Source: Mesobacillus jeotgali
Lineage (GTDB): Bacteria > Bacillota > Bacilli > Bacillales > Cytobacillaceae
Direction of reading: 5' to 3'
Length of the DNA stretch: 64,000 bases
Assembly: GCF_900166585.1 (NCBI RefSeq)
Contig: NZ_FVZC01000007.1
Location: forward strand, 496,001 to 560,000
Shown here one piece after another: positions 17,312 to 55,010 of this stretch (the stretch's first letter is position 1; each line of letters begins with the position of its first letter). A program made the position numbers and the translations under genes. The notes beneath the pieces are model-generated. The model worked only from the letters and a program-made list of their open reading frames with translations, was not told the origin of the DNA and did no database searches.

Positions 17312-17386
17312 TTGACACTTACAAATTGAGATGGTATTTTTATCATATGTTCTATATAAAGAACAAAAATATTCTTTATCAAGACA
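17312..17386 (+). promoter_or_regulatory. Promoter and SinR-type operator of lasso locus 1
   Basis: TTGACA at 17312-17317, a 17-base spacer, then TATTTT at 17335-17340. The perfect palindrome GTTCT-ATATAA-AGAAC (17349-17364) lies eight bases past the -10, near the expected transcription start. An imperfect copy (ATTCT-TTATCA-AGAC) begins at 17371. The arrangement predicts repression. The same palindrome occurs at the second lasso locus and the EPS promoter. The rest of the 17069-17415 gap holds only the two hairpins listed. Confidence 0.7.
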
Positions 17387-17415
17387 AAATGTATTTAGCA
17401 TGGCAGGAGGATACC

Positions 17416-19350
17416 ATGAGCGCAATTGCAGGAATCATTAATTTAACAAAAGAGCCGGTTCTCTTCGAGCATGGAAGGAACATAATGAAAGGCCTTGAGA
17501 AGTTCCCGGCAGATGATATCCAAGTCTGGCACAAACACAATGCCTTCATTGGAAACCATGCACAATGGATCACTCCAGAGTCAGTGGGCGAACAACAGCC
17601 ATTTTATGATTCCGAAAGGCAATGCGTCATCACTTCAGATGCCATCATAGATAACAGGGAAGAACTATTCGAAAAGCTCCAAGTCGAGCGGTCAAGACAA
17701 AAACACATGCCTGACTGCCAGCTCATTTTGCTAGCTTACTATAAATGGGGAGAAGACTCCCCAAAACACCTTGTAGGCGATTTCGCGTATATGATCTGGG
17801 ATGAGAGAAACCAGAAACTATTTGGTGCAAGGGATTTTTCAGGTTCACGGACTTTGTATTATTACAATGACAATGATAGATTTGCATTTTGTACCACCAT
17901 TATGCCATTGTTTACGCTGCCAGGGGTTAAGAAGGAATTGAATGAGCAGTGGATGGCAGAGTTTTTGGCTATACCTGTAAACTTTGAATCAATTAATCTT
18001 TCATCCACCACTTATAAGAATATACAGCAATTGACGCCTTCCCACTCTATATCAATTATTGAAGGAAGAATTAAATTAACGAGATATTGTAACTTCTATG
18101 AGAAAGAAGAGAAACTTAAGCTTAAATCCGATGCCGAATATGAAGAGGCATTTCGAGAGGTTCTTGATAAGGCCGTAAGAGCAAGAATCAGGACTCATCG
18201 AAATGTCGGTGCACATTTAAGTGGGGGGTTGGACTCAGGATCAGTTGCAAGCATGGCCTCTAGAGCTCTTAAAAATGAGAATAAAAGATTAAATACCTTT
18301 AGTTATGTTCCGGTATATGGTTTTCAGGATTGGACTCATAAAAGCAGAGTTGCTGATGAAAGCTCTTACGTTAGGGAAACTGTTAATTTTGTAGGTAACA
18401 TAAATGATCGTTATTTGAGCTTTGATGGGAGAAGTCCATTTACTGAGATTGATGAGTGGCTTGAAACTCTTGAAATACCATATAAATTTTTTGAAAATAC
18501 TTTTTGGTTAAGAGGCATTTATGAACAATCCCAACAGCAAGGAATAGGTGTTCTGCTGAATGGTCAAAGAGGAAATTGGACAATTTCATGGGGCCCCTTA
18601 GTAGATTATTATGCTAGCCTTCTAACAAAACTGAAATGGCATCATTTCTATAAGGAACTGAACCAATATAGCAACAATATAGGAGTGCAAAGGTATAAGA
18701 TTTTTAAGTTTTTTTTAAAAAAGGCATTCGGGTTAGAGAACTTGAAAAAAAGAGAGCCGTTGAACTTCCCAGTAATCATAGGATCGGATCTAGCAAAGAG
18801 AACGAAAGTTTTTGACTATCTTCAACAAAATGGAATTGACACGAATTTTACTAAAACCTCTTCGGCATATGAAGTAAAGAAAAGACAGTTTATCCATCCA
18901 TATTATTGGAGTCCAACTGGCATGTATGGAGCTAAATTCTCAGTGAGGTATTCTGTTTGGGATAGAGATCCGACAAATGATTTGAGGGTTGTGAAATTCT
19001 GTTTATCTATTCCAGAGGATCAATTTGTTAAAGATGGATTAGATCGTGCACTCGTCAGAAGAGCTACCAAGGGTTTGTTACCGGATACCATCAGACTCAA
19101 CCAAAAATCCAGAGGGGTTCAAGGTGCGGATGGAGCTTTTAGAATGGAACATTCTTGGAAGGAATTTATAAATGAATTGCAAATAATGGCGAATGATTCT
19201 GAAGTAGGGAACTATTTAAACTTGGAAGTCATAAAAGAGGCAATTGAAAAGATAAAAACGCAAGCAAAACCGGAGTATGCCTTTGATTTTGATTTTCGGA
19301 TTCTAATGCGCAGCTTAATTTTATTCAGGTTCTTAAAAAGAACTAATTGA
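17416..19350 (+). CDS. Lasso peptide macrolactam synthetase (C protein), locus 1
   Basis: A 644-residue asparagine-synthetase-B-like protein. The N-terminal amidotransferase-like domain starts MSAIAGIINL: the Cys2 needed for glutaminase activity is replaced by Ser, as expected for a lasso cyclase. The ATP-pyrophosphatase loop SGGLDSGS is at about residue 269. It should adenylate the core Asp9 side chain and close the ring on the core N-terminus. The start follows CAGGAGGA. The precursor gene begins 15 bases downstream and an RRE gene follows. It is a close paralogue of the protein at 48441, sharing WDRDPTNDLRVV and many other blocks. Confidence 0.93.
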   Translation: MSAIAGIINLTKEPVLFEHGRNIMKGLEKFPADDIQVWHKHNAFIGNHAQWITPESVGEQQPFYDSERQCVITSDAIIDNREELFEKLQVERSRQKHMPDCQLILLAYYKWGEDSPKHLVGDFAYMIWDERNQKLFGARDFSGSRTLYYYNDNDRFAFCTTIMPLFTLPGVKKELNEQWMAEFLAIPVNFESINLSSTTYKNIQQLTPSHSISIIEGRIKLTRYCNFYEKEEKLKLKSDAEYEEAFREVLDKAVRARIRTHRNVGAHLSGGLDSGSVASMASRALKNENKRLNTFSYVPVYGFQDWTHKSRVADESSYVRETVNFVGNINDRYLSFDGRSPFTEIDEWLETLEIPYKFFENTFWLRGIYEQSQQQGIGVLLNGQRGNWTISWGPLVDYYASLLTKLKWHHFYKELNQYSNNIGVQRYKIFKFFLKKAFGLENLKKREPLNFPVIIGSDLAKRTKVFDYLQQNGIDTNFTKTSSAYEVKKRQFIHPYYWSPTGMYGAKFSVRYSVWDRDPTNDLRVVKFCLSIPEDQFVKDGLDRALVRRATKGLLPDTIRLNQKSRGVQGADGAFRMEHSWKEFINELQIMANDSEVGNYLNLEVIKEAIEKIKTQAKPEYAFDFDFRILMRSLILFRFLKRTN

Positions 19351-19365
19351 AGGGAGGTGATAGTA

Positions 19366-19491
19366 TTGAAGAAAAAATGGGAAAAGCCAGAACTAGAAGT
19401 ACTTTCAGTAGGGCTGACCATGGCTGGTCCGGGATTAAAAACCCCAGATGCTGTTCAACCAGACCAGGATGAGACCGTACACTTCAGTTAA
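19366..19491 (+). CDS. Lasso peptide precursor (A), locus 1, paeninodin-like
   Basis: A 41-codon gene with a TTG start behind AGGGAGGTGA. The leader (about 19 residues) has the WxxPxLEVL motif read by lasso RRE proteins and ends LTM, with Thr at the conserved -2 position. The 22-residue core starts AGPGLKTPDAV and ends ETVHFS. Ala1 and Asp9 fit a nine-residue ring. AGPGxxTPDA is the same ring layout as paeninodin. The C-terminal Ser is the residue phosphorylated in that family. No cysteines, so no disulfide is expected. Confidence 0.92.
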   Translation: MKKKWEKPELEVLSVGLTMAGPGLKTPDAVQPDQDETVHFS

Positions 19492-19511: not shown

Positions 19512-19556
19512 AATAGGCCCTTGTTAGTTAAAACTGAATGAGGGCCTATTAATTTG
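19512..19556 (+). terminator. Hairpin downstream of precursor 1
   Basis: Perfect 10-bp stem AATAGGCCCT / AGGGCCTATT with a 19-base loop, followed by AATTTG. With few Ts it may be a partial terminator or an mRNA-stabilising hairpin favouring precursor over the RRE gene. Confidence 0.55.
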
Positions 19557-19617: not shown

Positions 19618-19914
19618 ATGGCAATCAAAGAAAAACTGATTTTAAACCAAACTATTGTTCAACAACCAGGAAATCTAGTAAGTGATATGGACGGAGAAAA
19701 AGTAATGCTAAATATTCAAAATGGAAAATATTATAACTTAGGAGAAGTTGGAGGATTTATTTGGGAGTTAATTGCACAGCCAACTGGAATAAATTCATTG
19801 ATTTTAAGTATAATAGAAAATTATGAAGTTAATCCCTCAGAATGTGAAAAAGAAGTTATTTCTTTTTGTACAGAATTGTATCTTGAAGGCTTAATTGAAG
19901 TAATCAACAACTAA
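19618..19914 (+). CDS. Lasso peptide RRE protein (PqqD-like, B1)
   Basis: A 98-residue PqqD-like RiPP recognition element. DGEKVMLNIQNGKYYNLGEV and GGFIWELIAQPTG show the strand-turn-strand then helix pattern of lasso B1 proteins. It should bind the precursor leader and present it to the B2 protease. The ATG giving MAIKEKL is chosen because AGGTGA lies five bases upstream; a GTG three codons earlier overlaps that site. It is the only complete stand-alone RRE in the window, and the second lasso locus has none, so it probably serves both precursors. Confidence 0.9.
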   Translation: MAIKEKLILNQTIVQQPGNLVSDMDGEKVMLNIQNGKYYNLGEVGGFIWELIAQPTGINSLILSIIENYEVNPSECEKEVISFCTELYLEGLIEVINN

Positions 19915-19928: not shown

Positions 19929-20022
19929 TTGACACGTTCTTTATACAGAACTAAAATAGGTATATATTAACATTAATTAAGAACGTTTATTTTTTTTATT
20001 TCGATTGTTCTTTATCTAGAAC
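19929..20022 (+). promoter_or_regulatory. EPS operon promoter with SinR-type operators
   Basis: TTGACA (19929-19934) and TAAAAT (19952-19957) are 17 bases apart. The spacer is almost exactly the palindrome GTTCT-TTATAC-AGAAC (19936-19951). A half-site AGAAC lies at 19980 and a second perfect palindrome, GTTCT-TTATCT-AGAAC, at 20007-20022. Both contain the SinR heptamer GTTCTTT. A repressor bound there would occlude polymerase. Confidence 0.78.
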
Positions 20023-20049: not shown

Positions 20050-20760
20050 ATGGGTAATGTTAAAAAAGGAACTGCTAAAGAAATTAATTTAAAGGAAATC
20101 TTTTCTGTTATTAAAAAAGGTTTCTGGATCATTGCCATTATTACCGCCTTTTCTGCATTTGCTGGATATTTATATGGTGAGAAGGATGTCACTCTCCTAT
20201 ATCAATCCTCAGCTCGAATAATTATTGGTAAAGAAGCTGATATGAACACACTACAGGTAATATTAAAAGACCCGGTAGTATTGGAGAAGGTTGTTGAGAG
20301 GCTTGGTCTAAATCGAAGCCCAGAATCTCTGGCTAATCAAATTAATGTAGGGATCCTTGAGAGTTCAAAAGTTGTTAACATAAGTGTAACCGATACGGAT
20401 CCTGCAAGAGCAGCAGATATCGCCAACACTACGGCTGAAGAATTTAAGACCGAAATAACTAGATTGCTTGATTTTGATGATATGGAGATATTTTCACCAG
20501 CAAAAATTAATCCCAATCCAATTAATGAGGAAGATAGTAAATTAGGCATTATAGGAATAGTTTTCGGAGTACTTGCTGGAATTGGGTTCGTTTTCTTCCT
20601 GGATTCATTAGATGACACAGTCAGATCACAAAAGGATGTTGAGGATTATCTAGGCCTTCCAGTGGTAGGAAGGATCTCGAAAATGAACAAAAAGAATATT
20701 AAGAAGCAAAGTATTCATCCAATAGACTTCCCGCGAGGTGATTCTGGTGTTCCGAAGTAA
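20050..20760 (+). CDS. epsA: Wzz/CapA-type chain-length modulator of a BY-kinase pair
   Basis: A 236-residue protein with transmembrane helices at ~27-47 and ~168-188 flanking an extracellular domain. A proline-rich segment (SPAKINPNPINEED) before the second helix and the SLDDTVRSQKDVEDYLGLPVVG cytoplasmic tail are typical of YveK/EpsA proteins. It activates the partner kinase and sets polymer length. It is the first gene after the SinR-type promoter and overlaps the kinase gene. Confidence 0.9.
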   Translation: MGNVKKGTAKEINLKEIFSVIKKGFWIIAIITAFSAFAGYLYGEKDVTLLYQSSARIIIGKEADMNTLQVILKDPVVLEKVVERLGLNRSPESLANQINVGILESSKVVNISVTDTDPARAADIANTTAEEFKTEITRLLDFDDMEIFSPAKINPNPINEEDSKLGIIGIVFGVLAGIGFVFFLDSLDDTVRSQKDVEDYLGLPVVGRISKMNKKNIKKQSIHPIDFPRGDSGVPK

Positions 20761-21403
20761 TCGAAGGTCAGCAAATGCAAATCAAAAAAGAAATTTGATC
20801 GTTTATTCCAATCCAGATTCAATCATAGCTGAACAATTTAGGACACTTCGCACCAATATACACTTCTTAACCGGAGGGAACAAGAGTATATTGCTTTTGA
20901 CATCCCCAAGTTCGAGTGAAGGAAAATCCACAGCTGCAGCGAACCTTGCTTTATCTATGGCCCAACAAAAAGAAAAAGTGCTGTTAATTGACGCGAACCT
21001 TAGGGATCCAAATATACACTATATATTTAAAATTTCTAACGGTAAGGGATTAGCGGATGTACTATCTGGTCAAGAAGAATTAAGGAATGCTGTGTACAAC
21101 ACTGAGATTGGAAACTTGGCAATATTGACAAGCGGGCACCTGGATTCTAATCCGGCTGAACTACTTGGTTCAGAATCCATGCAGAAATTATTTCATCAGG
21201 CATTGGAAGAATACGATTATATCTTTATTGACTCCCCCCCTGTATTGGATGTGACAGATACAAAATTACTAGCAAACAAAAGTGATGGTGTAATCCTTGT
21301 TATAGGGGAAGGAAAAACAGCTATTGAAAAAGCAGTAGAAGCTAAAAAGGCTCTTGAGTTTGCTAAGGCAAAGATCTACGGCGTTATATTGAATGAGATT
21401 TAG
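20747..21403 (+). CDS. epsB: BY-family tyrosine kinase of the EPS locus
   Basis: A ~218-residue cytoplasmic P-loop kinase. Walker A is SPSSSEGKST, Walker A' reads LLIDANLRDP (Asn replaces the usual second Asp), and Walker B is YIFIDSPP. The C-terminus ends at ILNEI without the tyrosine cluster seen in most BY-kinases, so autophosphorylation may be limited or elsewhere. I chose the GTG giving MFRSNRR because GAGGTG lies six bases upstream; another GTG nine bases earlier overlaps it. It overlaps the preceding modulator gene. Confidence 0.88.
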   Translation: MFRSNRRSANANQKRNLIVYSNPDSIIAEQFRTLRTNIHFLTGGNKSILLLTSPSSSEGKSTAAANLALSMAQQKEKVLLIDANLRDPNIHYIFKISNGKGLADVLSGQEELRNAVYNTEIGNLAILTSGHLDSNPAELLGSESMQKLFHQALEEYDYIFIDSPPVLDVTDTKLLANKSDGVILVIGEGKTAIEKAVEAKKALEFAKAKIYGVILNEI

Positions 21404-21431
21404 AAAAAGTTATTATTTTTTTTAAGTTTAT

Positions 21432-21447
21432 GTTCGTTATTAAGAAA
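21432..21447. promoter_or_regulatory. Imperfect SinR-type palindrome
   Basis: GTTCG-TTATTA-AGAAA resembles the operators at 19936 and 20007, with one mismatch per arm. It lies between the kinase gene and the EAR-like RNA. A weak or decayed site. Confidence 0.3.
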
Positions 21448-21461
21448 ATAATGTTCGTTTT

Positions 21462-21576
21462 GTGGTGATGTCTCCTAGCCGTTATCAAAGGAGACACTCG
21501 GTCATGCTGTGGGTGGAAAAAACCTTAGACGCTCTGGTCGTCGAGAGTGTGATGTGAGGAGGGGTTAAATGCCCCA
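21462..21576 (+). ncRNA. Candidate EAR (eps-associated) antitermination RNA
   Basis: A structured, GC-richer stretch lies between the second and third eps genes, the position of the EAR element in B. subtilis. Visible helices: GTCTCCT / AGGAGAC (21470-21476 with 21489-21495), CGCTCT / AGAGTG (21530-21535 with 21544-21549, one G-U) and GGGG / CCCC near 21561-21575. EAR promotes readthrough of terminators in long eps operons. The call rests on position and structure, not on an alignment. Confidence 0.6.
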
Positions 21577-21590
21577 TTTTATTATAAAGC

Positions 21591-21640
21591 TTTTACCTAT
21601 CTGTTTTCTGCAAGAACAAATAGGTAAAAACTTTATTTTT
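21591..21640 (+). terminator. Intrinsic terminator downstream of the EAR-like RNA
   Basis: TTTTACCTAT / ATAGGTAAAA (10 bp, 19-base loop) followed by CTTTATTTTT, between the EAR-like element and the next gene. It is a natural target for EAR-dependent readthrough. Confidence 0.55.
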
Positions 21641-21652
21641 AAGGAGGATTAT

Positions 21653-21793
21653 ATGAAGGAAATAGATAAGTTTCCGAAATCGGTGAAAAAGGCAGTGAGG
21701 TACATAAAGCAGGACGCCAGCAAAGAGCAGTTGGAAGAAATCAGGAAACTGATTGACTATGCTATTAAGCTACGGAGTGTGAGATTAGATTAA
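21653..21793 (+). CDS. Small hypothetical helical protein in the EPS operon (46 aa)
   Basis: A 46-residue, highly charged, probably all-helical protein (KFPKSVKKAVRYIKQD, EQLEEIRKLIDYAIKLR). An ideal AAGGAGG site lies before the ATG. It is between the EAR-like RNA and epsC, 20 bases before the latter. I do not recognise the family. Its helical EEIRK segment loosely recalls SinI-type antirepressors, and a SinR-like gene is in the same locus, but the likeness is too weak to assign. Confidence 0.65.
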   Translation: MKEIDKFPKSVKKAVRYIKQDASKEQLEEIRKLIDYAIKLRSVRLD

Positions 21794-21813
21794 AAGAAGA
21801 AAGGAGGCAAAGC

Positions 21814-23640
21814 ATGACATATAGACAGAGGCTTTCGTTATTTATCCTTATTGATTCAGTGATTGTACTGACAGCGATTTTCTTTAGTCATTTACTAGTA
21901 CGTGGAACGATCAATAATTCTCCATGGTTTTATTTGATAAGTGCTACAGCCATTTTGATAAGCCATCATTTTTTTTCTTTTAAATTCAAACTCTATAAAA
22001 AAGCCTGGGAATATGCAAGTGTCGGAGAACTAATCATCATCCTGAAAACTGCATCAGCCTCAATTTTGACGGCAGCTGTATTCCAGGGAGTCATACTCAA
22101 TGAAATTTTTGTAAGGCGATTATCGGTAACATGGCTGCTTTTAGTTTTAATTATTGGCGGGTCAAGGTTTTGCTGGAGGGTTTACAGGGATTTATATTTG
22201 AGTCGTTTAACCTTTAGCAAAAGGACACTAATTATTGGTGCAGGTTCTGCCGGAACTATGGTTGCAAGGCAGTTGCTAAAAAGTAAGGAATCTGACCTCC
22301 AGCCTGTTGGTTTTATTGACGATGATGCCAAAAAGCATCACCTGGATATTATGGGCATACCAGTACTTGGCGGAGTAGGTAAAATCGATGCCATTGTGAA
22401 AAAATATAAAATTGACAACATTGTCATTGCCATTCCTTCATTAAGCAGGAAGGAACTGAATAGCATTTTTAAAGAATGTGCAAAAACGGAAGCCAAGACG
22501 CAAATCCTGCCAATGCTGGAGGATCTTATGACCGGCAAGTTGTCAGTGAACCAATTTCGCGATGTCCAGGTTGAAGATTTACTGGGCAGAGATCCGGTTG
22601 TGTTAAACGATGACAAAATTTCTGAGGATATCACAAACAAAGTAGTACTTGTAACTGGAGCTGGGGGGTCGATCGGTTCAGAAATTTGCAGGCAGATTGC
22701 TCATTTTAATCCTGAAAAATTAGTTCTTTTAGGACACGGTGAGAACAGTATCTACTCAATTGAAATGGAACTTAAAGAAAGTTTTCGAGATTCATCCATA
22801 GAGTTTATTCCTATAATAGCTGAAATCCAGGATGCCAAAAAAATGATGTCCGTGATGGAGGCATTCCAGCCGGATGTTGTCTATCATGCTGCTGCCCATA
22901 AACATGTGCCGTTAATGGAGCGCAATCCTGAAGAAGCAGTAAAAAATAATATGATTGGTACTTTAAATGTAGCAAATGCCGCCAGCTGGCATGGAGTGAA
23001 AACATTCGTGATGATTTCATCCGATAAAGCAGTTAACCCAACAAGTGTGATGGGCGCAACAAAGAGACTTGCGGAGATGATTGTTCAGCATATGGATGAA
23101 AGCAGTAACACGAAGTTCGTTGCGGTCAGGTTTGGTAATGTTCTCGGCAGCCGTGGAAGTGTGATTCCTCTTTTCAAAAGGCAAATCGAGAAAGGCGGTC
23201 CTGTCACGGTAACGCATCCAGAAATGGTACGTTATTTCATGACGATTCCTGAGGCATCAAGGCTCGTGATCCAAGCAGGAGCCCTGGCGCAGGGAGGAGA
23301 AATCTTCGTCCTTGATATGGGGGAACCTGTAAAAATAGTAGACCTGGCCAAAAACTTGATTAAGCTATCAGGTTATTCTGTTGATGAAATCGGAATAGAA
23401 TATACAGGAACAAGACCAGGTGAAAAGCTGTATGAAGAGCTTTTGAAAGATGAAGAAGTGGGAGATCATCAAGTACACCCAAAAATATATGTAGGAAAAA
23501 CATCAGCATTATATATATCCGAGATAGAAGAGATTATCGGTACCTTCTCAAGTATGGAAAAGGAAGAATTGAGAGATCGTTTGTTAGCATTAGCTAATAA
23601 TAGGTTTTCCGAGTCTCCGATTATGTCAATTTCAGTTTAG
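21814..23640 (+). CDS. epsC: Membrane UDP-sugar 4,6-dehydratase (EpsC/CapD/PglF type)
   Basis: A 608-residue protein with four N-terminal transmembrane helices, a CoA-binding-like domain (~residues 130-270; TLIIGAGSAGTMVARQLL) and a C-terminal extended SDR domain (VLVTGAGGSIGSEICRQI). The active-site region contains MISSDKAVNPTSVMGATKR. It should convert UDP-GlcNAc to a 4-keto-6-deoxy sugar. With the EpsN aminotransferase and EpsM acetyltransferase it can make a bacillosamine-type sugar. AGGAGG precedes the ATG. Confidence 0.94.
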   Translation: MTYRQRLSLFILIDSVIVLTAIFFSHLLVRGTINNSPWFYLISATAILISHHFFSFKFKLYKKAWEYASVGELIIILKTASASILTAAVFQGVILNEIFVRRLSVTWLLLVLIIGGSRFCWRVYRDLYLSRLTFSKRTLIIGAGSAGTMVARQLLKSKESDLQPVGFIDDDAKKHHLDIMGIPVLGGVGKIDAIVKKYKIDNIVIAIPSLSRKELNSIFKECAKTEAKTQILPMLEDLMTGKLSVNQFRDVQVEDLLGRDPVVLNDDKISEDITNKVVLVTGAGGSIGSEICRQIAHFNPEKLVLLGHGENSIYSIEMELKESFRDSSIEFIPIIAEIQDAKKMMSVMEAFQPDVVYHAAAHKHVPLMERNPEEAVKNNMIGTLNVANAASWHGVKTFVMISSDKAVNPTSVMGATKRLAEMIVQHMDESSNTKFVAVRFGNVLGSRGSVIPLFKRQIEKGGPVTVTHPEMVRYFMTIPEASRLVIQAGALAQGGEIFVLDMGEPVKIVDLAKNLIKLSGYSVDEIGIEYTGTRPGEKLYEELLKDEEVGDHQVHPKIYVGKTSALYISEIEEIIGTFSSMEKEELRDRLLALANNRFSESPIMSISV

Positions 23641-23652
23641 GGGTGGAAGTAG

Positions 23653-24537
23653 ATGAAAGTAAAAAAAGCAATTATCCCAGCTGCAGGCCTGGGAACAAGG
23701 TTCTTGCCGGCAACAAAAGCAATGCCGAAAGAAATGCTACCGATTGTAGATAAACCAACTATTCAATATATCGTTGAAGAAGCAATTGAGTCAGGAATTG
23801 AGGATATCATCATTGTTACTGGGAAAGGAAAAAGAGCGATTGAAGACCATTTTGACCACTCCTTTGAACTGGAACAAAACCTGTTAGAAAAAGGAAAATT
23901 CGAGTTACTAACTGAGGTCCAAAAGTCTTCAAAACTTGTTGATATCCATTATATCCGTCAAAAAGAGCCAAAAGGTCTTGGCCATGCCATCTGGTGTGCC
24001 AGAAAATTTGTCGGGAATGAACCCTTTGCCGTTCTATTAGGTGATGATATTGTCCAGGCGGAAAAACCTTGCCTCCAACAAATGATGGAGCAGTATGAAA
24101 GATATAATGCTTCGATTCTTGGAGTGCAAAAAGTGAATCCAACTGAAGTATCAAGATATGGGATTGTAGATGGAAACTGTATTGGCGACCGATTTTACAG
24201 TGTCAGCAGTTTAGTAGAGAAACCAGCGATTGAAGAAGCTCCATCAAATCTGGCAATCATGGGCCGATATATCCTGAATCCCAGAATATTTGATATTCTT
24301 AATCAGCAAGAACCCGGTGCTGGCGGAGAAATCCAGTTAACTGATGCAATCGCTGGATTGAACGAATATGAAGCTGTTTATGCATACGACTTTGAAGGCA
24401 CCAGATATGATGTTGGTGAAAAAATGGGTTTTATTAAAACTACGATTGATTTCGCTTTGCAACGGGATGATTTGCGCTCTGACCTGCTAGACTACTTTTC
24501 TTCGATTCTAAACCTTGAAAAAGCAAGGCAGAGTTAA
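23653..24537 (+). CDS. gtaB: UTP--glucose-1-phosphate uridylyltransferase
   Basis: A 294-residue GalU/GtaB nucleotidyltransferase. The start [20 protein letters not shown] and the lysine motif EKP are canonical. It makes UDP-glucose, which GalE downstream (31179) can epimerise to UDP-galactose. It begins 12 bases after epsC. An EPS-dedicated copy is likely in addition to a housekeeping gene. Confidence 0.95.
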
Positions 24538-24541
24538 ACTT

Positions 24542-25702
24542 ATGGGTACAAAAAAACGGATTTTACTTTGTGCAACAGTTGATTACCATTTCAGTGCCTT
24601 TCATTTACCATATATGAAATGGTTCAAAGAGCAAGGGTGGGAGGTACATGTTGCTGCTAAAGGCAATATGGAGCTCCCTTTTGTTGATAAAAAATACGAT
24701 TTGCCAATACAAAGGTCGCCATTCAGCCTGCAAAATATGAAGGCATATCAACAATTAAAATCAATCATCGACCAAAATGATTATCAAATCATTCATAGTC
24801 ATACGCCAGTTGGCGGAGTGCTAGCCAGACTAGCTTCCATGGCAGCCAGAGAAAAAGGAACGAAAGTATTGTACACAGCTCATGGTTTTCATTTCTGTAT
24901 AGGTTCACCGGCAATAAACTGGCTAATCTACTATCCTATTGAAAAATGGCTGGCCAGGTATACCGACTGCCTGATTACCATTAATGAAGAGGATTTCAAC
25001 AGAGCAAAACGGCATCATTTCAAGGCAGACCGTATTGAACATGTTCATGGAGTTGGAGTAAACACAGAAAAATTCAGGCCCGCTGAAAAAGAGTATAAAA
25101 AGGAACTAAGAATCGCCTACGGCTACAACGTTGGCGATTTTTTAATGTTTTATGCTGCGGAATTCAATAAAAACAAGAACCAGCAATTGTTAATTCGAGC
25201 CCTAGCACAAATAGTAGATGATGTTCCAAAAGCTAAGCTGTTATTTGCTGGAGAAGGACCTTCATTGGAGGAGTGTCGTAAATTGGCAAAAAAACTAGCT
25301 GTTGAAAATCAGGTTCATTTTTTAGGATTTAGGAAGGACATTGAACAGTTACTGCAAATATCTGATGTTGCTGTTGGATCGAGTTTTCGAGAAGGTCTCC
25401 CTGTGAATATTATGGAAGCCATGGCATGCGGCTTGCCGGTAATCGCAACAGTAAACAGAGGGCATCGAGAACTAATTACAAACCAGCAAGAAGGCTGGTT
25501 AATCAAAGAGTCTAACCCACGGATGTTTGCTAAAAAGATGAAGCTGTTGGCAAAGGATCCAGCACAAAGGGCAGTAATGGGGTCCAATGGACGAAGGCTG
25601 ATAATTAATAACTTCAGTACAAACAAAATACTCCAAGAAAAGAGTGCAATCTACAAACCATATATGGCAGAAACGGAGGAGTCGAAGTGGGCAGCCCTTT
25701 AA
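24542..25702 (+). CDS. epsD: GT4 glycosyltransferase, EpsD-like
   Basis: A ~386-residue glycosyltransferase with two Rossmann domains. The N-terminal IIHSHTPVGGVLARLAS and YTAHGFHFC segments and the C-terminal EGLPVNIMEAMACGLPV (EX7E nucleotide-sugar motif) match EpsD of B. subtilis. The ATG giving MGTKKRIL is used; a TTG upstream overlaps gtaB. The ribosome binding site is weak, suggesting translational coupling. The acceptor sugar is unknown. Confidence 0.88.
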   Translation: MGTKKRILLCATVDYHFSAFHLPYMKWFKEQGWEVHVAAKGNMELPFVDKKYDLPIQRSPFSLQNMKAYQQLKSIIDQNDYQIIHSHTPVGGVLARLASMAAREKGTKVLYTAHGFHFCIGSPAINWLIYYPIEKWLARYTDCLITINEEDFNRAKRHHFKADRIEHVHGVGVNTEKFRPAEKEYKKELRIAYGYNVGDFLMFYAAEFNKNKNQQLLIRALAQIVDDVPKAKLLFAGEGPSLEECRKLAKKLAVENQVHFLGFRKDIEQLLQISDVAVGSSFREGLPVNIMEAMACGLPVIATVNRGHRELITNQQEGWLIKESNPRMFAKKMKLLAKDPAQRAVMGSNGRRLIINNFSTNKILQEKSAIYKPYMAETEESKWAAL

Positions 25703-27691: not shown

Positions 27692-27707
27692 TTGAAAGGA
27701 ATAGAAA

Positions 27708-28781: not shown

Positions 28782-28808
28782 GCTATTTATTGATAGGGGG
28801 GATAACAT

Positions 28809-29942: not shown

Positions 29943-29964
29943 TAATTTTGGGGAGAAGTGATAA

Positions 29965-31164: not shown

Positions 31165-31178
31165 ACGGAGGTGGATTT

Positions 31179-32264: not shown

Positions 32265-32279
32265 GAAGAGGACTAAGGA

Positions 32280-32429: not shown

Positions 32430-32456
32430 TCTTAACCGTGGCTAGGGGTTGCAAAA

Positions 32457-34894: not shown

Positions 34895-34920
34895 TATCCA
34901 AGGATAATGAGGTAGCCTAC

Positions 34921-36412: not shown

Positions 36413-36435
36413 CTATGCTTAATTAGGAGATTTTT

Positions 36436-37581: not shown

Positions 37582-37598
37582 AGAAAGGAGAGTAATAA

Positions 37599-38015: not shown

Positions 38016-38033
38016 TGATTAAAGGAAAATAAT

Positions 38034-40255: not shown

Positions 40256-40272
40256 TAGTTGGTGAAATGACC

Positions 40273-41466: not shown

Positions 41467-41486
41467 AGAAGCAGGGTGTGAGAAAT

Positions 41487-43280: not shown

Positions 43281-43282
43281 AG

Positions 43283-44467: not shown

Positions 44468-44485
44468 GGGGAGGAGGGGGAGCCA

Positions 44486-48275: not shown

Positions 48276-48421
48276 TTGACACCTTAAAAAATAGGTGGTA
48301 AATTTTAAATATAAAGTTCTTAATAAAGAACATTAGTTTAATACTGAAAAGTTATTAAACTATAGTTTATAAATTAAAGGTTTTTATATTTTTTTTGATT
48401 TTATCGTTCATTATAATGAAC
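48276..48421 (+). promoter_or_regulatory. Promoter and SinR-type operators of lasso locus 2
   Basis: TTGACA (48276-48281), 17-base spacer, TAAATT (48299-48304). The perfect palindrome GTTCT-TAATAA-AGAAC (48316-48331) lies 12 bases past the -10, mirroring locus 1. A second perfect dyad, GTTCATTATAATGAAC, is at 48406-48421 just before the ribosome binding site. The rest of the 48151-48440 gap shows nothing else. Confidence 0.72.
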
Positions 48422-48440: not shown

Positions 48441-50387
48441 ATGAGTGCTATTGCTGGAATTCTAAATTTAAACCATGATCCAATTAATCCAGAACATATG
48501 GAAGGATTAATGAACTCATTTCAAAAATTTCCGGCTGACAAGGTTGATAGCTGGACAAAAGATCATCTTTTCTTTGGCTGTCATGCTCAATGGATTACTC
48601 CTGAATCTGTTGGAGAGAGATTGCCCTGTTATGACCATGAGAGAAACCTGTTGATTACAGCTGATGCAATTATTGATAATCGGGAAGAGCTATTTGAAAA
48701 GTTACAGATAAATCAGAGTTTGCGAAGTATGCTGCCTGATTCACAACTTATATTACTTGCATACTCCAAATGGAAAGAGGACGTTCCCAAGTACTTAGTC
48801 GGTGATTTTGCCTTTGTGATTTGGGATGAGAAGCAGCAAAAGCTATTTGGAGCAAGAGATTTTTCAGGTACAAGGACATTGTATTTTTATCGTGATACCT
48901 CACGATTTGCGTTTTCAACACTTATCGAGCCGCTATTAAAATTGCCCTATGTTGAGAAGAAGCTTAATGAACAGTGGCTGGCTCAATTTTTAGTCATTCC
49001 AACTTTAGTTGAAGCAGCAGACACCTCCATCACAGTTTATCAGAACATCGAACAGCTGCCACCCTCACATAGCATTACTATCAAAAATGGAAGAATAACT
49101 ATATCTAAGTATCAAAGCATCCCTCCAGATGACACACTGAAATTAAAATCTGATTATGAGTATGAAGAAGCCTTTCGTGAAGTATGGAATAAGGTTGTGA
49201 CAGAAAAGGTTCGCAGCTCTGGTCAAGTAGGTTCACATTTAAGTGGTGGCCTGGATTCTGGTTCAGTTGTTAGTTTTGCATCAAGAGCATTAAGAAAAGA
49301 AAATAAACGATTGTTAACCTTTAGCTATATTCTCGAAGAAACCTTTAACGATTGGACTCCTGGATATTATGTTGCTGACGAAACGCCTTACATAAAAGAA
49401 ACAGTGAACTATGTAGGCAACATTGAAGATCATTACCTTAACTTTCCCGGGAAAAGCCCATTAGAGGAGATTGATGATTTTTTAGAAATAATGGAGATGC
49501 CATATAAGTTTTTTGAGAATTCTTTTTGGCTTAAGGGCATCAGCGAGGAAGCGGCAAGTAAAGGAGTTAAGGTTTTGTTAAACGGAGCAAGAGGCAACCA
49601 CTCAATTTCCTGGGGGTCATATGCACTAAACATGAACTATTATACTTCATTGATGAAGAGATTTAGGTGGGTGGAGTTAAATAAAGAGTTAGATAATTAC
49701 TGTGAAAATTTCATTACGGGTAAATCAATCATGCTTCCACTTGTTATAAAAGAAGCTTTCCCAAATTTTTTTAAAAAATCTAATAACACGCAATACGAAT
49801 TCCCATCCTTCATTAATCAATCATTTGCCCAAAAAACAAAGGTTTACGAGAAGTTAAACCATTATGGCATTGATCTTTCCGGAGGGAATGTTACAGGCAA
49901 CTTGGGTGAATATCGAAGAAATCATTATGAACAACCCTATTTTTGGAACAAAAGCGGTGTGGCTAATACAAATTTCTCTTTAAGATACTCTTTATGGGAT
50001 CGGGATCCAACAAACGATTTGCGAGTAGTTCGTTTTTGCTTATCCGTACCTGAGGAGCAATATGTTAAGCATGGTATGATTCGTTCGTTAATTAGAAGAT
50101 CCACTGAAAATATTTTGCCAGAAAAGGTAAGGATGAATCACAACAAAAGAGGCATCCAGGGAGCAGATACCATTCATCGTCTATCGAAGAATTGGAAAGG
50201 CTTCCTCGATGAGATAAAAAAGCTAGATCGAAACTCAGCGGCAGCAGAGTTTATTGATACAGATTTCTTGAAAAATTCTATCTCTAGAATCGATGAGAAG
50301 CCGACTCCCGAACTCGTTTGGAAGGATGATTTCAAGATTTTAACTAGAAGTTTGATAGTAAATAAGTTTCTTGAGAAATACTTCTGA
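48441..50387 (+). CDS. Lasso peptide macrolactam synthetase (C protein), locus 2
   Basis: A 648-residue paralogue of the protein at 17416. MSAIAGILNL again lacks the amidotransferase Cys2, and the ATP loop is HLSGGLDSGSVVS. The blocks WDRDPTNDLRVVRFCLS and the NWKGFLDEI region also match. CGGAGGAAAC precedes the ATG. The precursor begins 14 bases downstream. Having a dedicated cyclase for each precursor suggests that ring formation is substrate-specific. Confidence 0.93.
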   Translation: MSAIAGILNLNHDPINPEHMEGLMNSFQKFPADKVDSWTKDHLFFGCHAQWITPESVGERLPCYDHERNLLITADAIIDNREELFEKLQINQSLRSMLPDSQLILLAYSKWKEDVPKYLVGDFAFVIWDEKQQKLFGARDFSGTRTLYFYRDTSRFAFSTLIEPLLKLPYVEKKLNEQWLAQFLVIPTLVEAADTSITVYQNIEQLPPSHSITIKNGRITISKYQSIPPDDTLKLKSDYEYEEAFREVWNKVVTEKVRSSGQVGSHLSGGLDSGSVVSFASRALRKENKRLLTFSYILEETFNDWTPGYYVADETPYIKETVNYVGNIEDHYLNFPGKSPLEEIDDFLEIMEMPYKFFENSFWLKGISEEAASKGVKVLLNGARGNHSISWGSYALNMNYYTSLMKRFRWVELNKELDNYCENFITGKSIMLPLVIKEAFPNFFKKSNNTQYEFPSFINQSFAQKTKVYEKLNHYGIDLSGGNVTGNLGEYRRNHYEQPYFWNKSGVANTNFSLRYSLWDRDPTNDLRVVRFCLSVPEEQYVKHGMIRSLIRRSTENILPEKVRMNHNKRGIQGADTIHRLSKNWKGFLDEIKKLDRNSAAAEFIDTDFLKNSISRIDEKPTPELVWKDDFKILTRSLIVNKFLEKYF

Positions 50388-50401: not shown

Positions 50402-50557
50402 ATGAAGAAAGAATGGCAAAAACCAACATTAGAGACATTGGACATTAGCATGACATTTAATGGGCCGGGAAATGCCAATGCAGATTGCTTTGATGTTTCG
50501 GATGGTAAAACGGAAACTCATCCAGGGCGGTCCAACGCAAGTTGTTTAGGTAGCTAA
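50402..50557 (+). CDS. Lasso peptide precursor (A), locus 2, long two-cysteine core
   Basis: A 51-residue precursor behind AAGGGGGG. The leader (19 residues) has WQKPTLETLDI and ends MTF, so Thr is at -2. The 32-residue core starts NGPGNANADCF: Asn1 and Asp9 fit a nine-residue ring, with the GPG element shared with precursor 1. Cys10 directly after the ring and Cys29 in the tail could form a disulfide. It ends SCLGS, keeping the C-terminal Ser that the kinase family modifies. Asn1 and the core length are unusual for lasso peptides. Confidence 0.88.
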   Translation: MKKEWQKPTLETLDISMTFNGPGNANADCFDVSDGKTETHPGRSNASCLGS

Positions 50558-50573
50558 AAATTAGTTCATCCCT

Positions 50574-50608
50574 ACCCTTATATCTTGAAAAAGGTATAAG
50601 GGTTTTTA
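50574..50608 (+). terminator. Terminator-like hairpin after precursor 2
   Basis: ACCCTTATA / TATAAGGGT (9 bp) followed by TTTTT. It lies between the precursor and the tailoring genes and probably attenuates them relative to the precursor. Confidence 0.75.
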
Positions 50609-50628: not shown

Positions 50629-51573
50629 ATGTTAAATACAAAGACGAAAATGACCTATAAGGCCTTCGGGTTCCATATATCCAGTGACATAGCATTACCT
50701 GAGCTTCAAGCAGTTAGTGAGGGAGTCGACACGGTTGATATTTCGATCCAAGCGGGTGATGTCTCTCAATTATGGGCAGATTCGGAGAAACTGAATCGCT
50801 ATACTTCTGTTTCCGAAGATTTGGTGTTGTTCTATATTCCTGAGACGGCTATTTATGCCATTAGGAATGGGAAGGAAATCATCTATACTCCTGTGGAAGG
50901 AAGCAGTGACGATGCGAATCGTCTGTATCTTCTTGGTTCGTGTATGGGGGCTTTATTGATGCAGCGGAGAATTCTTCCGCTTCATGGCAGTGCAATTGAG
51001 ATTGATGGAAAGGCTTATGCGATTGTCGGTGATTCGGGTGCGGGAAAATCGACTCTTGCTTCTGCTTTTTTGAGGGAAGGTTATCGGCTGATTAGTGATG
51101 ATGTGATTCCTGTTACGATTTGTGACGGTGTGCCAATGGTAACGCCGGCCTATCCACAGCAGAAGCTCTGGCTGGAAAGTCTCACCCATTTTGGGATGGG
51201 GTCTGATGGACTGAGGCCCATTATCGACCGTGAAACGAAATTTGCTATTCCTGTACAGTCCCAATTTGTTACGAAGTCTCTGCCATTAGCTGGTGTTTTT
51301 GAATTAGTAAAGACAGAGAACGATCATCTAGAAATCCTCCCTGTTACGAACCTTCAACGTCTGCACACCTTGTTCTACCACACTTACCGCAATTTTTTGA
51401 TAGGGCCGATGGGCTTAATGGAATGGCACTTTAATATGACTGCAGGGTTTGCTAATAAAATTGAATTATTCCAGATTCGCAGGCCAGTCGCCCATTTTAC
51501 CGCTCCTGAAATTGCGAGATTGATTTTATCAGAAGTTCATAACGAACCGCGAAAAAAGGTGGCAGAAAGATGA
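50629..51573 (+). CDS. Lasso peptide kinase (HPr-kinase-like)
   Basis: A 314-residue HPr-kinase/phosphorylase-like protein. Walker A is GDSGAGKST near residue 134, preceded by LPLHGSAIEIDGKAYAIVG; the second acidic site is LISDDVIPV. In paeninodin and pseudomycoidin systems this enzyme phosphorylates the C-terminal Ser of the precursor. Both precursors here end in Ser. It overlaps the B2 gene by four bases. Confidence 0.9.
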   Translation: MLNTKTKMTYKAFGFHISSDIALPELQAVSEGVDTVDISIQAGDVSQLWADSEKLNRYTSVSEDLVLFYIPETAIYAIRNGKEIIYTPVEGSSDDANRLYLLGSCMGALLMQRRILPLHGSAIEIDGKAYAIVGDSGAGKSTLASAFLREGYRLISDDVIPVTICDGVPMVTPAYPQQKLWLESLTHFGMGSDGLRPIIDRETKFAIPVQSQFVTKSLPLAGVFELVKTENDHLEILPVTNLQRLHTLFYHTYRNFLIGPMGLMEWHFNMTAGFANKIELFQIRRPVAHFTAPEIARLILSEVHNEPRKKVAER

Positions 51574-52049
51574 AGCTTTTCCGGAAAGTAAGCATCTTTT
51601 TATCCTTTAGCTTTGAGATGAAATGGCTATTAATTGAAGCCATCTCTTTTTTAGCTTTTGCCAGGATTTTAAAGGCCCTGCCCTTTGCAAAAGTGGCTCC
51701 CTCTCTAGGGATTCAAATGGAAGAGACTAACTATGCTATGAATGCTGATCTTAAAATTCTGAAGCAAATCTCACAAGCTATTCATATCATGAGTGCCTAT
51801 ACATTTTGGGAGAGCCAATGTCTAGTGAAGGCGATAGCAGGTATGAAAATGCTTGAGAGAAGGAAAATCGAGAGTACATTATATCTGGGAACAGCTAAAG
51901 ACGAAGAGGGAAAATTGATTGCTCATGCATGGCTGAGGAGCGGCACCTATTACATGAGCGGCTCTGAGGGGATGGAACGTTTTTCGGTGGTCGGGAAGTT
52001 TGCGAAGGTCATCCAACAAAATAAAGTGCTGGGAGAAAGCAATGGATAA
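51570..52049 (+). CDS. Lasso peptide leader protease (B2, transglutaminase-like)
   Basis: A 159-residue cysteine protease of the lasso B2 / transglutaminase-like family. Catalytic Cys84 is in WESQCLVKA and His119 in IAHAWLRSG. It cuts between leader and core once B1 delivers the precursor. No B1 lies in this locus; the only RRE protein is at 19618. It overlaps the nucleotidyltransferase gene. Confidence 0.92.
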   Translation: MKLFRKVSIFLSFSFEMKWLLIEAISFLAFARILKALPFAKVAPSLGIQMEETNYAMNADLKILKQISQAIHIMSAYTFWESQCLVKAIAGMKMLERRKIESTLYLGTAKDEEGKLIAHAWLRSGTYYMSGSEGMERFSVVGKFAKVIQQNKVLGESNG

Positions 52050-53220
52050 GATAACTGGTCTTGATTTATCGGAAGTTCCAAGGGAGTTAAAAGTCCAACT
52101 TAGTTTATTGAGTAAAGATATTAAGGAAGTTTGTTTCGAAGGACTGAACTGGGATCTTTTTATCGATCTTGCTATGCATCACAGAACCTTTCCAGTACTT
52201 TATCCTAAATTGAAACAGCTCCAAGAAGGAACCATCCCTGAATATGTCATGAAGACACTTGAAATGCAATACAGACAAAACACGTTCCGAATGCTGCAAT
52301 TATGCGCTGAGATGGAGCAGGTCAGTAATCTGTTTGCAAAAAATGAAATAAATCTGATTGTTCTTAAGGGGCCGGTACTGGCTAGCGATCTATACGGGGA
52401 TCTATCCAGGCGCACATGCGGAGACCTGGATGTTCTGATTCCAATCAGTGACCTTAAAAGGGCAGAGGAACTCCTTCTCCAGGAAGGATACAGAAAGGAT
52501 GATTATATCCATTCTGTACTTGGCGATTGGAAATGGCGCCATCATCATGTGACCTTTTTTCATGAGACTAAGCTGATTAAGCTGGAAATTCATTGGCGAC
52601 TCAATCCAGGACCAGGTGTGGAACCTGCTTTTGAAGACTTATGGGCTCGGAAAAGGGTTAGTTCAATAACGAATTCACCAGTTTATTATCTGGGGAGAGA
52701 GGATTTGTTCACTTTTCTTGTTTCCCATGGTGCCCGGCATGGCTGGTCCCGTCTTCGCTGGCTGATGGATATATCCCAGATGGTTGAGCAAGAGATGGAA
52801 TGGCGTCAGATTCTTAGTATGTTCGAAAAATATAGCAGCAGGGATGTAGCCGGACAGGCACTTATCCTGGCATCAGAGTTGTTAGGATGCAGACTGCCAA
52901 AGGGCACAGAACAGCTGATGACGTCATCAAAAGCCAAACACCTGGCTAAGGACGCCATCTTTTACATTGAAAAAATGGTGAATCTACATACAGATCCTGT
53001 CCCTGAAGAAGTAGCGGTTTTTCACAAGGAGCACTTATTTTCGTTAATGTCCAAAAAGCAAAAAGCCCTGTTTATTCTTAGTTTTTTATATCCCTATCCA
53101 GAGGATGCTGAGACATTGCCGCTTCCTAAGCAGTTCCATCTCTTATATTTTCCGTTGCGTCCCTTCTTATGGGGATGGAGAAGGACTAGGAGACAAGTGG
53201 CGGACAGGAGGATTTCCTAA
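52042..53220 (+). CDS. Lasso-locus nucleotidyltransferase (PsmN-like)
   Basis: A 392-residue nucleotidyltransferase-fold protein. LIVLKGPVLASDLYGDLSRR and the catalytic GDLDVLIP (Asp128 and Asp130) are clear. In pseudomycoidin biosynthesis the homologue acts on the phosphorylated C-terminus, adding sugars to the phosphate. The same role is inferred here. The ATG giving MDKITGLD follows GGGAGAAAG. Its stop overlaps the ABC start (TAATG). Confidence 0.88.
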   Translation: MDKITGLDLSEVPRELKVQLSLLSKDIKEVCFEGLNWDLFIDLAMHHRTFPVLYPKLKQLQEGTIPEYVMKTLEMQYRQNTFRMLQLCAEMEQVSNLFAKNEINLIVLKGPVLASDLYGDLSRRTCGDLDVLIPISDLKRAEELLLQEGYRKDDYIHSVLGDWKWRHHHVTFFHETKLIKLEIHWRLNPGPGVEPAFEDLWARKRVSSITNSPVYYLGREDLFTFLVSHGARHGWSRLRWLMDISQMVEQEMEWRQILSMFEKYSSRDVAGQALILASELLGCRLPKGTEQLMTSSKAKHLAKDAIFYIEKMVNLHTDPVPEEVAVFHKEHLFSLMSKKQKALFILSFLYPYPEDAETLPLPKQFHLLYFPLRPFLWGWRRTRRQVADRRIS

Positions 53221-55010
53221 TGGAGTCCATCTTATATTTTGTAAAAAAATTGCACACCTATTCGGGAAAGATCCTTTATATCAACCTGGCAGGGATGATT
53301 GCGGTCAGTCTTTTAGAGGGAATTGGCATACTGTTTTTAATTCCAATGATCAGCATGAGCGGAGTGATCAACGTTGATACAAAGGGAACACCCATTGAGG
53401 GACTGTTTGAATTTATCAATAGGTTCCCAGAGAGTTTAGGACTGCCGATCATTCTTGCAATTTATGTTTTGCTTGTAATAGGGCAAAATGTGCTGCAAAG
53501 ACAGATAACTATCCGTAATACGAAAATCCAGCATGGATTCTTCCGCCATTTGCGTATCGAGACCTATGATGCCTTGCTGCACTCTAATTGGAATTTTTTC
53601 ATTAAAAAACGAAAGTCCGACATTATTAATTCGCTGACTTCCGAAATTGCCACAGCAAGCGCAGGGACGCATTCTTTTTTACAATTTGTTACAGGTCTTA
53701 TTTTTACGATTATTCAAATCGGGATTGCATTTTGGCTATCTGCCAATATTACATTTTTTGTTTTGTTGAGCGGTGTGGCATTGCTCTTTTTTTCAAGAAG
53801 TTTCTTAAAAAGGTCGATGGCACTCGGAAACAGGAATTATGTGTCTGGCAAGAAGTATTTGGCCGGGATTACAGATCAGATTAATGGAATAAAGGATATA
53901 AAAAGCAATGGCCTTGAAGAATCGAGGATGCAATGGTTTAAGAACGTGACGAAAGAGATGCAAGCAGAGCAGATCGAATATGCCCAGTTGAATACCAAAT
54001 CACAGCTTTACTATAAGTCGGCATCCGCTATCTTGATTGCGGGGTTTTTATTTGGGGCTGTGAATTTGTTCAACGCCCATGCGGGGCAGCTGATGCTGGT
54101 GATCGTGATTTTTTCCAGGTTATGGCCAAGAGTTGCCGGGATTCAATCCTCACTCGAACAAATGGCAATGCGAATACCTTCTTATCAGGCAGTTATAAAT
54201 TTGCAAAATGAATGTCATGCCGCCAGGGAATTCGCAGATAATGAGATGGACTCTAAAAGGATACTTGAAATCGAACATGGAATTGAATGCCGAAATGTTT
54301 TCTTTCAATATAACGAAAATAAATATGCTCTTAAAAATATTGATCTTTTCATTCCTGTCAAAGAGATGACCGCAGTGGTAGGAAAATCTGGAGCAGGAAA
54401 GAGTACATTGATAGATTTGTTAATGGCATTGAATAAACCGGCACATGGTGAAGTATTGGTGGATGGAAAACCTTTAACAAAGGAGATGTTGATTCCTTTT
54501 AGAAAGGAAATTAGCTATGTCCCGCAGGACCCGTTTCTTTTTAATGCCAGTATTAGAGAAAATCTATTGCTTGTATATCCTAATGCAACTGAGCAGGAGT
54601 TATGGAATGCATTAGAATTCTCATCAGCAGCAGAGTTTGTAAGGAAAATACCGGATGGTCTAGATACTTTGATCGGCGATCGAGGCATCAGGCTTTCTGG
54701 AGGAGAACGTCAGCGTCTTGTGTTGGCAAGAGCTATCCTCAGGAATCCATCAATACTGGTGCTTGATGAAGCAACAAGTGCTCTTGATACGGAAAATGAA
54801 GCAAAAATTCAGGAAGCACTGGAAAAGCTTAAAGGGAAAATGACCATTATAGTTATTGCGCATAGATTATCGACCATTCGCAACGCAGATCAGGTCGTTG
54901 TATTAGAAGATGGGGAAATCATTCAAAAAGGCAGATTTGGCCAGCTGGCACTGGAGAAGAAAAGTGTCTTTGGCAAGCTGTTAAAAAATCAAATGGAAGT
55001 GGCACCATAA
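53220..55010 (+). CDS. Lasso peptide ABC exporter (D protein)
   Basis: A 596-residue half-transporter. About six transmembrane helices precede an ATPase domain with Walker A VGKSGAGKSTL (about residue 388), signature LSGGERQRLVLARAI and Walker B ILVLDEATSALD. No C39 peptidase domain, as usual for lasso D proteins. It should export and give immunity to one or both lasso peptides. AGGAGG precedes the ATG. Confidence 0.92.
   Translation: MESILYFVKKLHTYSGKILYINLAGMIAVSLLEGIGILFLIPMISMSGVINVDTKGTPIEGLFEFINRFPESLGLPIILAIYVLLVIGQNVLQRQITIRNTKIQHGFFRHLRIETYDALLHSNWNFFIKKRKSDIINSLTSEIATASAGTHSFLQFVTGLIFTIIQIGIAFWLSANITFFVLLSGVALLFFSRSFLKRSMALGNRNYVSGKKYLAGITDQINGIKDIKSNGLEESRMQWFKNVTKEMQAEQIEYAQLNTKSQLYYKSASAILIAGFLFGAVNLFNAHAGQLMLVIVIFSRLWPRVAGIQSSLEQMAMRIPSYQAVINLQNECHAAREFADNEMDSKRILEIEHGIECRNVFFQYNENKYALKNIDLFIPVKEMTAVVGKSGAGKSTLIDLLMALNKPAHGEVLVDGKPLTKEMLIPFRKEISYVPQDPFLFNASIRENLLLVYPNATEQELWNALEFSSAAEFVRKIPDGLDTLIGDRGIRLSGGERQRLVLARAILRNPSILVLDEATSALDTENEAKIQEALEKLKGKMTIIVIAHRLSTIRNADQVVVLEDGEIIQKGRFGQLALEKKSVFGKLLKNQMEVAP

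Follow-up and report, generated by a model that had tools for sequence, protein, structure and literature searches.

A lasso-peptide maturation kit divided between two loci around the exopolysaccharide genes of Mesobacillus jeotgali, and probably shared by both

We analyzed a 64,000-nucleotide stretch of the soil bacterium Mesobacillus jeotgali (G000:C7:496001-560000, hereafter the window), in which lasso-peptide genes flank exopolysaccharide (EPS, slime-polysaccharide) genes on both sides (Table 1). The host genome measures 4.63 Mb in 9 contigs and is rated 100% complete. Locus 1 has the order C1-A1-B1 (cyclase, precursor and a recognition element, RRE, for ribosomally synthesized and post-translationally modified peptides, RiPPs), and locus 2 has the order C2-A2-K-B2-NTase-ABC, adding a kinase, a leader peptidase, a nucleotidyltransferase-like enzyme and an exporter. 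The EPS locus between them encodes Wzz, a tyrosine-kinase-like ATPase, EpsG, a sugar transferase, a DegT aminotransferase and glycosyltransferases. As the initial annotation of this DNA had it, locus 1 is without K, B2, NTase and ABC, locus 2 is without B1, and each precursor has a cyclase of its own (C1-A1 and C2-A2).

Table 1. Features of the two lasso-peptide loci and the EPS locus, in window coordinates.
Feature	Position	Strand	Remarks
Locus 1 promoter	17312..17364	+	TTGACA at 17312; TATTTT ending 17340; SinR-type operator 17349-17364
C1, lasso macrolactam cyclase, clade I	17416..19350	+	NF033535, 398 bits; ATG read directly
A1 precursor	19357..19491	+	WxxPxL leader; core AGPGLKTPDAVQPDQDETVHFS at 19423-19488; C-terminal Ser
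Hairpin 3' of A1	19516..19546	+	Resembles the hairpin 3' of the precursor gene in relatives
B1, PqqD-type RRE	about 19618..19914	+	NF033536, 127 bits (cut-off 80)
EPS promoter	19929..20022	+	TTGACA at 19929; TAAAAT ending 19957
SinR-type operators of the EPS promoter (first, second)	19936-19951, 20007-20022	+	
epsA-O-like exopolysaccharide locus	20050..45217	+	
SinR homologue within the EPS locus	34921..35262	+	E=7e-22 to B. subtilis SinR, query residues 1-109
Locus 2 promoter	48276..48421	+	TTGACA at 48276; TAAATT ending 48304
Operators of the locus 2 promoter	48316-48331, 48406-48421	+	First SinR-type, second imperfect
C2, lasso macrolactam cyclase, clade II	48441..50387	+	NF033535, 415 bits (below cut-off 525)
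A2 precursor	50402..50557	+	WxxPxL leader; core NGPGNANADCFDVSDGKTETHPGRSNASCLGS at 50459-50554; two Cys; C-terminal Ser
Terminator-like hairpin 3' of A2	50574..50603	+	
K, HprK-like peptide kinase	50629..51573	+	P-loop intact
B2, transglutaminase-like leader peptidase	51570..52049	+	NF033537, 99 bits (cut-off 33)
NTase, nucleotidyltransferase-like tailoring enzyme	52042..53220	+	PF14907
ABC exporter	53220..55010	+	

Both precursors match the paeninodin family model NF033524 (A1 with 53 bits, A2 with 59 bits; cut-off 27), and in addition to the features in Table 1 both have T at position -2 and D9. The two cyclases are 52% identical, both score above cut-off for PF00733 and GATase_7, and the SGGLDS motif of C1 is intact. 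For B1, a longer alternative GTG start at 19609 is also listed. B1 lies 126 bp after A1 and 135 bp before wzz, and K and B2 overlap by 4 bp, leaving locus 2 without a B1; from the start of the B1 match to that of the B2 match is 31,979 bp. All six A-to-next-gene gaps that were compared have a hairpin of the type GCCCTTATA..TATAAGGGC after the precursor gene, and this hairpin perhaps sets a high ratio of A to kinase.

Genome-wide searches at E<=1 found no second PqqD protein and no second Transglut_core3 protein, leaving B1 and B2 as the only ones found; a further copy, which the initial annotation had proposed looking for, did not turn up. At E<=1e-40 the same genome has two lasso cyclases. 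A search of locus 1 for remnants of K, B2, NTase and ABC gave chance-level matches only (best E 0.011, at most 22 residues), and the LPPB and LPPS profiles, built on one seed sequence each, had no match in the window. Taken separately, neither locus has B1 and B2 beside C and A in one cluster, and the co-clustering of B1 and B2 that is typical of paeninodin systems is seen only if both loci are counted as one system. Given the usual route for both peptides, each locus has to borrow from the other across the gap, B1 in one direction and B2 in the other, because the genome holds no further copy of either.

We compared the window with its relatives. In a genus set of 21 genomes, 9 have B2 and 8 have B1 above cut-off. 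In G006, G019, G012, G015 and G017, a compact C-A-K-B1-B2-NTase-ABC cluster precedes wzz. A second species, Bacillus sp. ISL-37 (G016), agrees with the window in carrying only C-A-B1 at this upstream site, and in both the missing genes sit with a second C-A pair past the EPS genes, between metallophosphatase and VanZ genes. The synteny comparison suggested in the initial annotation thus returned the same reciprocal split. The locus 2 proteins of the two species are 82-92% identical, as compared to 54% for C1 and 41% for B1, and the A1 core is quite different too. Among the 64/193 family-level genomes with both genes above cut-off, a distance of over 20 kb between B1 and B2 on a single contig is found in these two only; it is 5-8 kb in six others, and the genes are on different contigs in G174. 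Of the genomes seen, these two alone have the halves separated by EPS genes. A far C-A-K-ABC unit without B1 or B2 is present in G033, G122, G136 and G140 (with NTase in three of the four), either past the EPS genes or on another contig (G140). Use of B1 and B2 in trans would not be peculiar to the window genome; the divided kit is.

A single kit alongside two cyclases is common. Two intact cyclases were found in 12/193 family-level genomes, each with one B1 and one B2 above cut-off, and in 25/397 order-level genomes, each with one B1 above cut-off. With two genomes in both sets, this gives a single B1 in 35/35 two-cyclase genomes; the single-B2 statement covers the family-level genomes only. 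Four of the 12 family-level genomes (G033, G065, G122 and G140) also have weaker PqqD matches that fall short of the NF033536 cut-off; these were not counted as B1, and those of G033, G122 and G140 lie within clusters of the linear polyphosphorylated peptide (LPP) type. G001 and G174 (family) and G366 (order) each gave two cyclase pieces, which we took for a single broken or fragmented gene, and these genomes were left out of the doubles. Up to 3 candidate cyclases per genome were scored at order level; in three of the doubles there (G217, G472 and G491) the match covers only part of one cyclase, within an open frame of 604-648 aa. A tandem cyclase pair stands ahead of one K-B1-B2 set in 31/87 annotated regions, with a precursor after the second cyclase in 30/31 of these and after both in 27/31. 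The 87 are what remained of 99 regions minus 11 duplicates and G055x, with some genomes giving two (G140a and G140b); 78 named loci were recruited by similarity to C2 (best 80 of 139), and clade II, described next, is over-represented among them.

The cyclases fall into two old groups. Second or downstream cyclases group together as clade II in a FastTree of 126 cyclases and in an IQ-TREE check on 59 of these (SH-aLRT 99), the sole exception among 39 second cyclases being L120; six lone cyclases also lie within this clade. Precursors were compared for 107 of the 126 cyclases, the 19 without a pattern-found precursor being omitted. The core has exactly two Cys in 42/43 clade II members, the only one without being L102 (Cohnella kolymensis), and two or more Cys in 0/64 clade I members. 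The C-terminal Ser is retained in 43/43 clade II and 62/64 clade I cores. At equal cyclase divergence (52-64%), mean core identity is 61% in clade II (819 pairs) versus 37% in clade I (1633 pairs). The window A2 core equals that of L063 over all 32 residues, with cyclases that are 62% identical. The cysteine positions suggest a tail-tail disulfide (class IV-like) in the two-Cys cores. We therefore read C1 and C2 as old paralogues, one belonging to a clade with a conserved two-cysteine peptide and the other to a clade with variable cores.

The initial annotation had imagined an ancestral cluster that was duplicated and then split by the EPS genes. A recent duplication in the window genome is ruled out, with C1 and C2 in the two old clades; that idea needs correcting toward clade I and clade II cyclases standing side by side ahead of one kit, as in the tandem regions above. 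Locus 1 has a history of its own. The window C1 groups with those of G006 and G019, and the window B1 with those and that of G033 (B1 supports 0.83-0.93), while C1 and B1 of G016 group elsewhere; in both split species the B1 grouping is much like the C1 grouping. Because C1 and B1 of the window and of G016 group in different places, it seems that C1-A1-B1 can be exchanged as a unit with locus 2 left in place. A2 would then be the conserved two-cysteine member of the pair, and A1 the variable, exchangeable member.

Several further arrangements were seen. In G016, the metallophosphatase gene beside locus 2 is split into short frames (G016:C47:42138-42552, L043). In the window, 45406-45504 repeats part of the 3' end of the metallophosphatase gene at 47434-48150 (two blastn pieces, 79% and 84%); it precedes a gene resembling lipoteichoic acid (LTA) synthase at 45568-47391, and we read it as the footprint of an insertion or duplication. 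About 8 kb separate B1 from B2 in G166 (L157), G167, G169 and G171, where B2 has another, weaker RRE (57-66 bits) next to it. A lone C-A pair stands ahead of wzz in L138 (10001-12300), which we took to be genome G139 from the same C position, and there B1 and B2 are on another contig, C46. In L102 (10001-16000) the order is C-A-K-B2-NTase-ABC, and B1 was not found within the fetched stretch. In G001, the match to the sole lasso cyclase comes in two pieces, and a stop lies either between these or inside them (G001:C234:29432-31364). At the far EPS end of G006 (48243-52869, joined L045-L048) is an LPP-type cluster like the published LPP family, with genes for a kinase, an RRE, a signal-peptidase-like protein, an ABC protein and an NTase-like protein.

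All three transcription units of the window carry operator-like palindromes at their promoters. One of the type GTTCTTTATATAGAAC lies 8 bp past the -10 box of the C1 promoter and 11 bp past that of the C2 promoter; at the wzz promoter a palindrome of this type fills the spacer, and a further copy lies downstream. The SinR-type boxes of loci 1 and 2 and the first EPS box have at most 1 mismatch on one strand and 0 on the other, and the second EPS box has 0 and 2 on the two strands. GTTCTYT inverted repeats are thus present at the promoters of C1, wzz and C2, and SinR of B. subtilis binds GTTCTYT, prefers the inverted repeat, and has a Kd of 300 nM according to the available text of PMC3163267. 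At up to 2 mismatches, the window has 15 matches to such a box versus 2.57 expected, with palindromes scoring on both strands, and 0/100 shuffles reach 15. Across the relatives, an exact box lies within 400 bp upstream of 55/99 leading cyclase genes, and one with at most one mismatch upstream of 76/99, where the 99 include four tandem-internal cyclases whose preceding A was missed. Of 1248 other long frames, 32 have an exact box and 74 one with at most one mismatch; of 27 tandem-internal cyclases, 5 and 14 do, and ten shuffles of the 99 upstream sequences gave means of 0.1 (exact) and 1.3 (one mismatch). A box precedes 21/38 wzz genes exactly and 26/38 with one mismatch. These counts come from related sequences and are not independent events. 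The SinR homologue encoded within the EPS locus is the candidate for the actual regulator.

The EPS genes also travel with the lasso genes. A wzz of this type (at least 44% identity) is present in exactly the 8 genus genomes with B1. The other 13 have only a 32-38% wzz paralogue; in 12 of them nothing matches B1, B2 or C, and the thirteenth, G009 (66% complete), has only fragments of C and B2 and no such wzz. EPS and lasso genes have been gained and lost together in this genus. The view of the initial annotation that they form one unit thus gains from this co-occurrence in the same 8/21 genomes and from the SinR-type boxes before C1, wzz and C2. Its further statement, that no lasso system laid out around a polysaccharide locus had been described, does not hold: lasso clusters in capsule loci are published in the available text of PMC13381572, which also rules out EPS embedding as a novelty. 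In P. alginolyticus, the same source reports, lasso, LPP and EPS genes are up-regulated together.

What this link means is a separate matter, with odds of its own, from whether a kit is shared. It could be positional or regulatory only, the lasso genes having no matrix function, and the exchange of C1-A1-B1 in G016 and the frequent gain and loss of paeninodin genes described in PMC13381572 would fit this. In our estimation a link of this limited kind is rather unlikely, given that each of the three units has SinR-type operators, that EPS and lasso genes occur and are missing together in the genus, and that joint up-regulation is published for P. alginolyticus. These three observations show co-regulation and not joint function.

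We propose, with a probability of about 76%, that both loci together make up one twin-lasso system, whose only maturation kit is shared in trans. C1 would close A1 and C2 would close A2. B1 from locus 1 would bind the WxxPxL leaders of both precursors and present both to B2 from locus 2, K would phosphorylate the C-terminal Ser of both cores, NTase would add a sugar, and the ABC protein would export both peptides. Because all three transcription units have SinR-type operators, a SinR-like repressor acting at each could release both peptides together with the polysaccharide. A1 and A2 would be fitting substrates for one B1, one K and one NTase because both have the WxxPxL leader and the C-terminal Ser. 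According to the available texts, PadeB1 binds its leader with a Kd of 5.3 nM and presents it to PadeB2 (PMC5067487), and the paeninodin RRE favors WxxP leaders (PMC13381572); in this family the precursor receives its phosphate at the C-terminal Ser from the kinase, and hexose addition requires a nucleotidyltransferase homologue, possibly with a host glycosyltransferase (both in the review PMC9266682). Gene content, single-copy B1 and B2, conservation and operators are read from the DNA itself, and from them we infer that the kit acts in trans and that both peptides are modified. Sharing of B1 and B2 across the gap, which the initial annotation had put forward, is favored by their single copies, the split in G016 and the 35/35 single-B1 genomes, if both peptides follow the usual route.

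We considered it very unlikely that nothing is shared, with C1 and B1 making A1 without B2 through host proteases and C2 making A2 without B1. Pseudomycoidin, by the title of its paper, reportedly forms in vivo without a leader and a leader peptidase, which speaks for such a route, but B1 would be left without a B2 partner and B2 without a B1 even though both genes are conserved and intact. PadeB1 presents its precursor to PadeB2 (PMC5067487), and all of the family-level two-cyclase genomes (12/12) retain one B1 and one B2 above cut-off.

Selection bears on whether one locus is a decaying relic and only a single peptide is made. The ratio of nonsynonymous to synonymous substitution rates (dN/dS) between the window and G016 is 0.11 for C2, 0.08 for K, 0.12 for B2, 0.08 for NTase, 0.04 for ABC and 0.03 for A2 (51 codons, dS 2.1). 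For locus 1, C1 gives 0.09-0.14 and A1 gives 0.06 (40 codons, dS 3.3) against G006 or G019, and B1 gives 0.15 against G006, with dS saturated against G019; between the window and G016, B1 gives 0.31 and C1 is saturated. With intact motifs and low dN/dS, the lasso genes are intact and under purifying selection, and neither half looks like a relic. Both loci are without some genes, and gains and losses are frequent in paeninodin systems (PMC13381572), which speaks for decay; open reading frames, intact motifs, dN/dS of 0.03-0.15, an A2 core kept across genera, and a promoter-like site with an operator at each locus render a relic highly improbable. It is likewise highly improbable that an RRE or peptidase elsewhere, diverged or unrelated, makes up what each locus lacks, in the manner of the signal-peptidase-like LppS of LPP clusters. 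LPP-type clusters with their own RRE and peptidase do lie at the far EPS end in G006, G019, G012 and G015, but the window genome has one PqqD only at E<=1 and no LPP gene was found in the window by the single-seed profiles, searches that would miss an unrelated peptidase.

Several observations weigh against a shared kit or its common control. C1 and C2 both fall short of the NF033535 cut-off of 525, although this is the best model for each. The history of locus 2 appears to be mosaic, because C2 and K have different nearest relatives from ABC and NTase: tandem clusters are the group in which C2 falls and the nearest relatives of K, while the nearest copies of ABC and NTase after G016 are the downstream ones in G136, G140, G122 and G033. 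As to the ancestral order, C2 and K point to tandem clusters, and ABC and NTase to downstream copies in other genera. In 44/99 leading cyclase genes there is no exact box, and in 23/99 none at one mismatch; sigma-70-like motifs are no commoner in the window than in shuffles. Finally, the B1 proteins of the window and G016 would serve nearly the same A2 at 41% identity, and therefore a tolerant B1 is needed.

The nearest known systems are paeninodin-type clusters (C-A-K-B1-B2-D) of firmicutes such as Paenibacillus dendritiformis, as described in the available text of PMC5067487, which have the same gene families, a WxxP leader and a C-terminal Ser. The window likewise has the W/YxxPx[LVI] leader, Thr at -2, an acidic ring acceptor, an Asn-synthetase-like cyclase, and a C-terminal Ser with an HprK-like kinase, the single kinase being in locus 2 only. 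Unlike these clusters, it has two cyclase-precursor pairs and one kit split between loci 32 kb apart. The clusters of Popov et al. 2026 (PMC13381572), with RRE, kinase, NTase and ABC, include lasso genes within EPS or capsular loci, and in the available text several relatives carry LPP genes at the far EPS end. At the far end of the window there is instead a second lasso locus, no LPP was found, and B1 and B2 are reciprocally split; of the LPP features, the YxxP leader is absent, both leaders being WxxP, and for the LppS-type signal peptidase and own RRE the LPPB and LPPS profiles gave no match in the window. The SinR regulon of B. subtilis (eps, yqxM; available text of PMC3163267) shares the GTTCTYT repeats at the eps promoter and a SinR homologue, but in the window the boxes also precede two lasso loci, and SinR does not appear in the main text of PMC13381572. 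On two cyclases sharing a kit, or on SinR with lasso peptides, nothing relevant was found in the literature searched, which covered few subscription journals. Cebulassopins, to go by the title of a 2026 paper, reportedly have a split lasso operon. As far as our searches show, the reciprocal split, the pairing of a constant and a variable peptide with one kit, and the SinR-box link are new.

The biological roles of paeninodins are stated to be unknown in the available text of PMC13381572. We speculate, tentatively and with doubts that outweigh our confidence, that the two loci are a matrix-linked module in which a constant two-cysteine A2 and a fast-changing A1 are matured by one kit that also adds phosphate and sugar, released with EPS through SinR, and act jointly in the biofilm. 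If so, A2 would belong to the matrix as a structural or signalling component, A1 would be a strain-specific signal or antagonist, and a phospho-sugar tail could tie both peptides to the polysaccharide. The natural reciprocal split offers a clean genetic test of whether an RRE and a leader peptidase act in trans, a direct and testable reason for the link to EPS is at hand in the SinR-type operators, and the pairing of a constant with a variable peptide suggests what to seek in biofilms.

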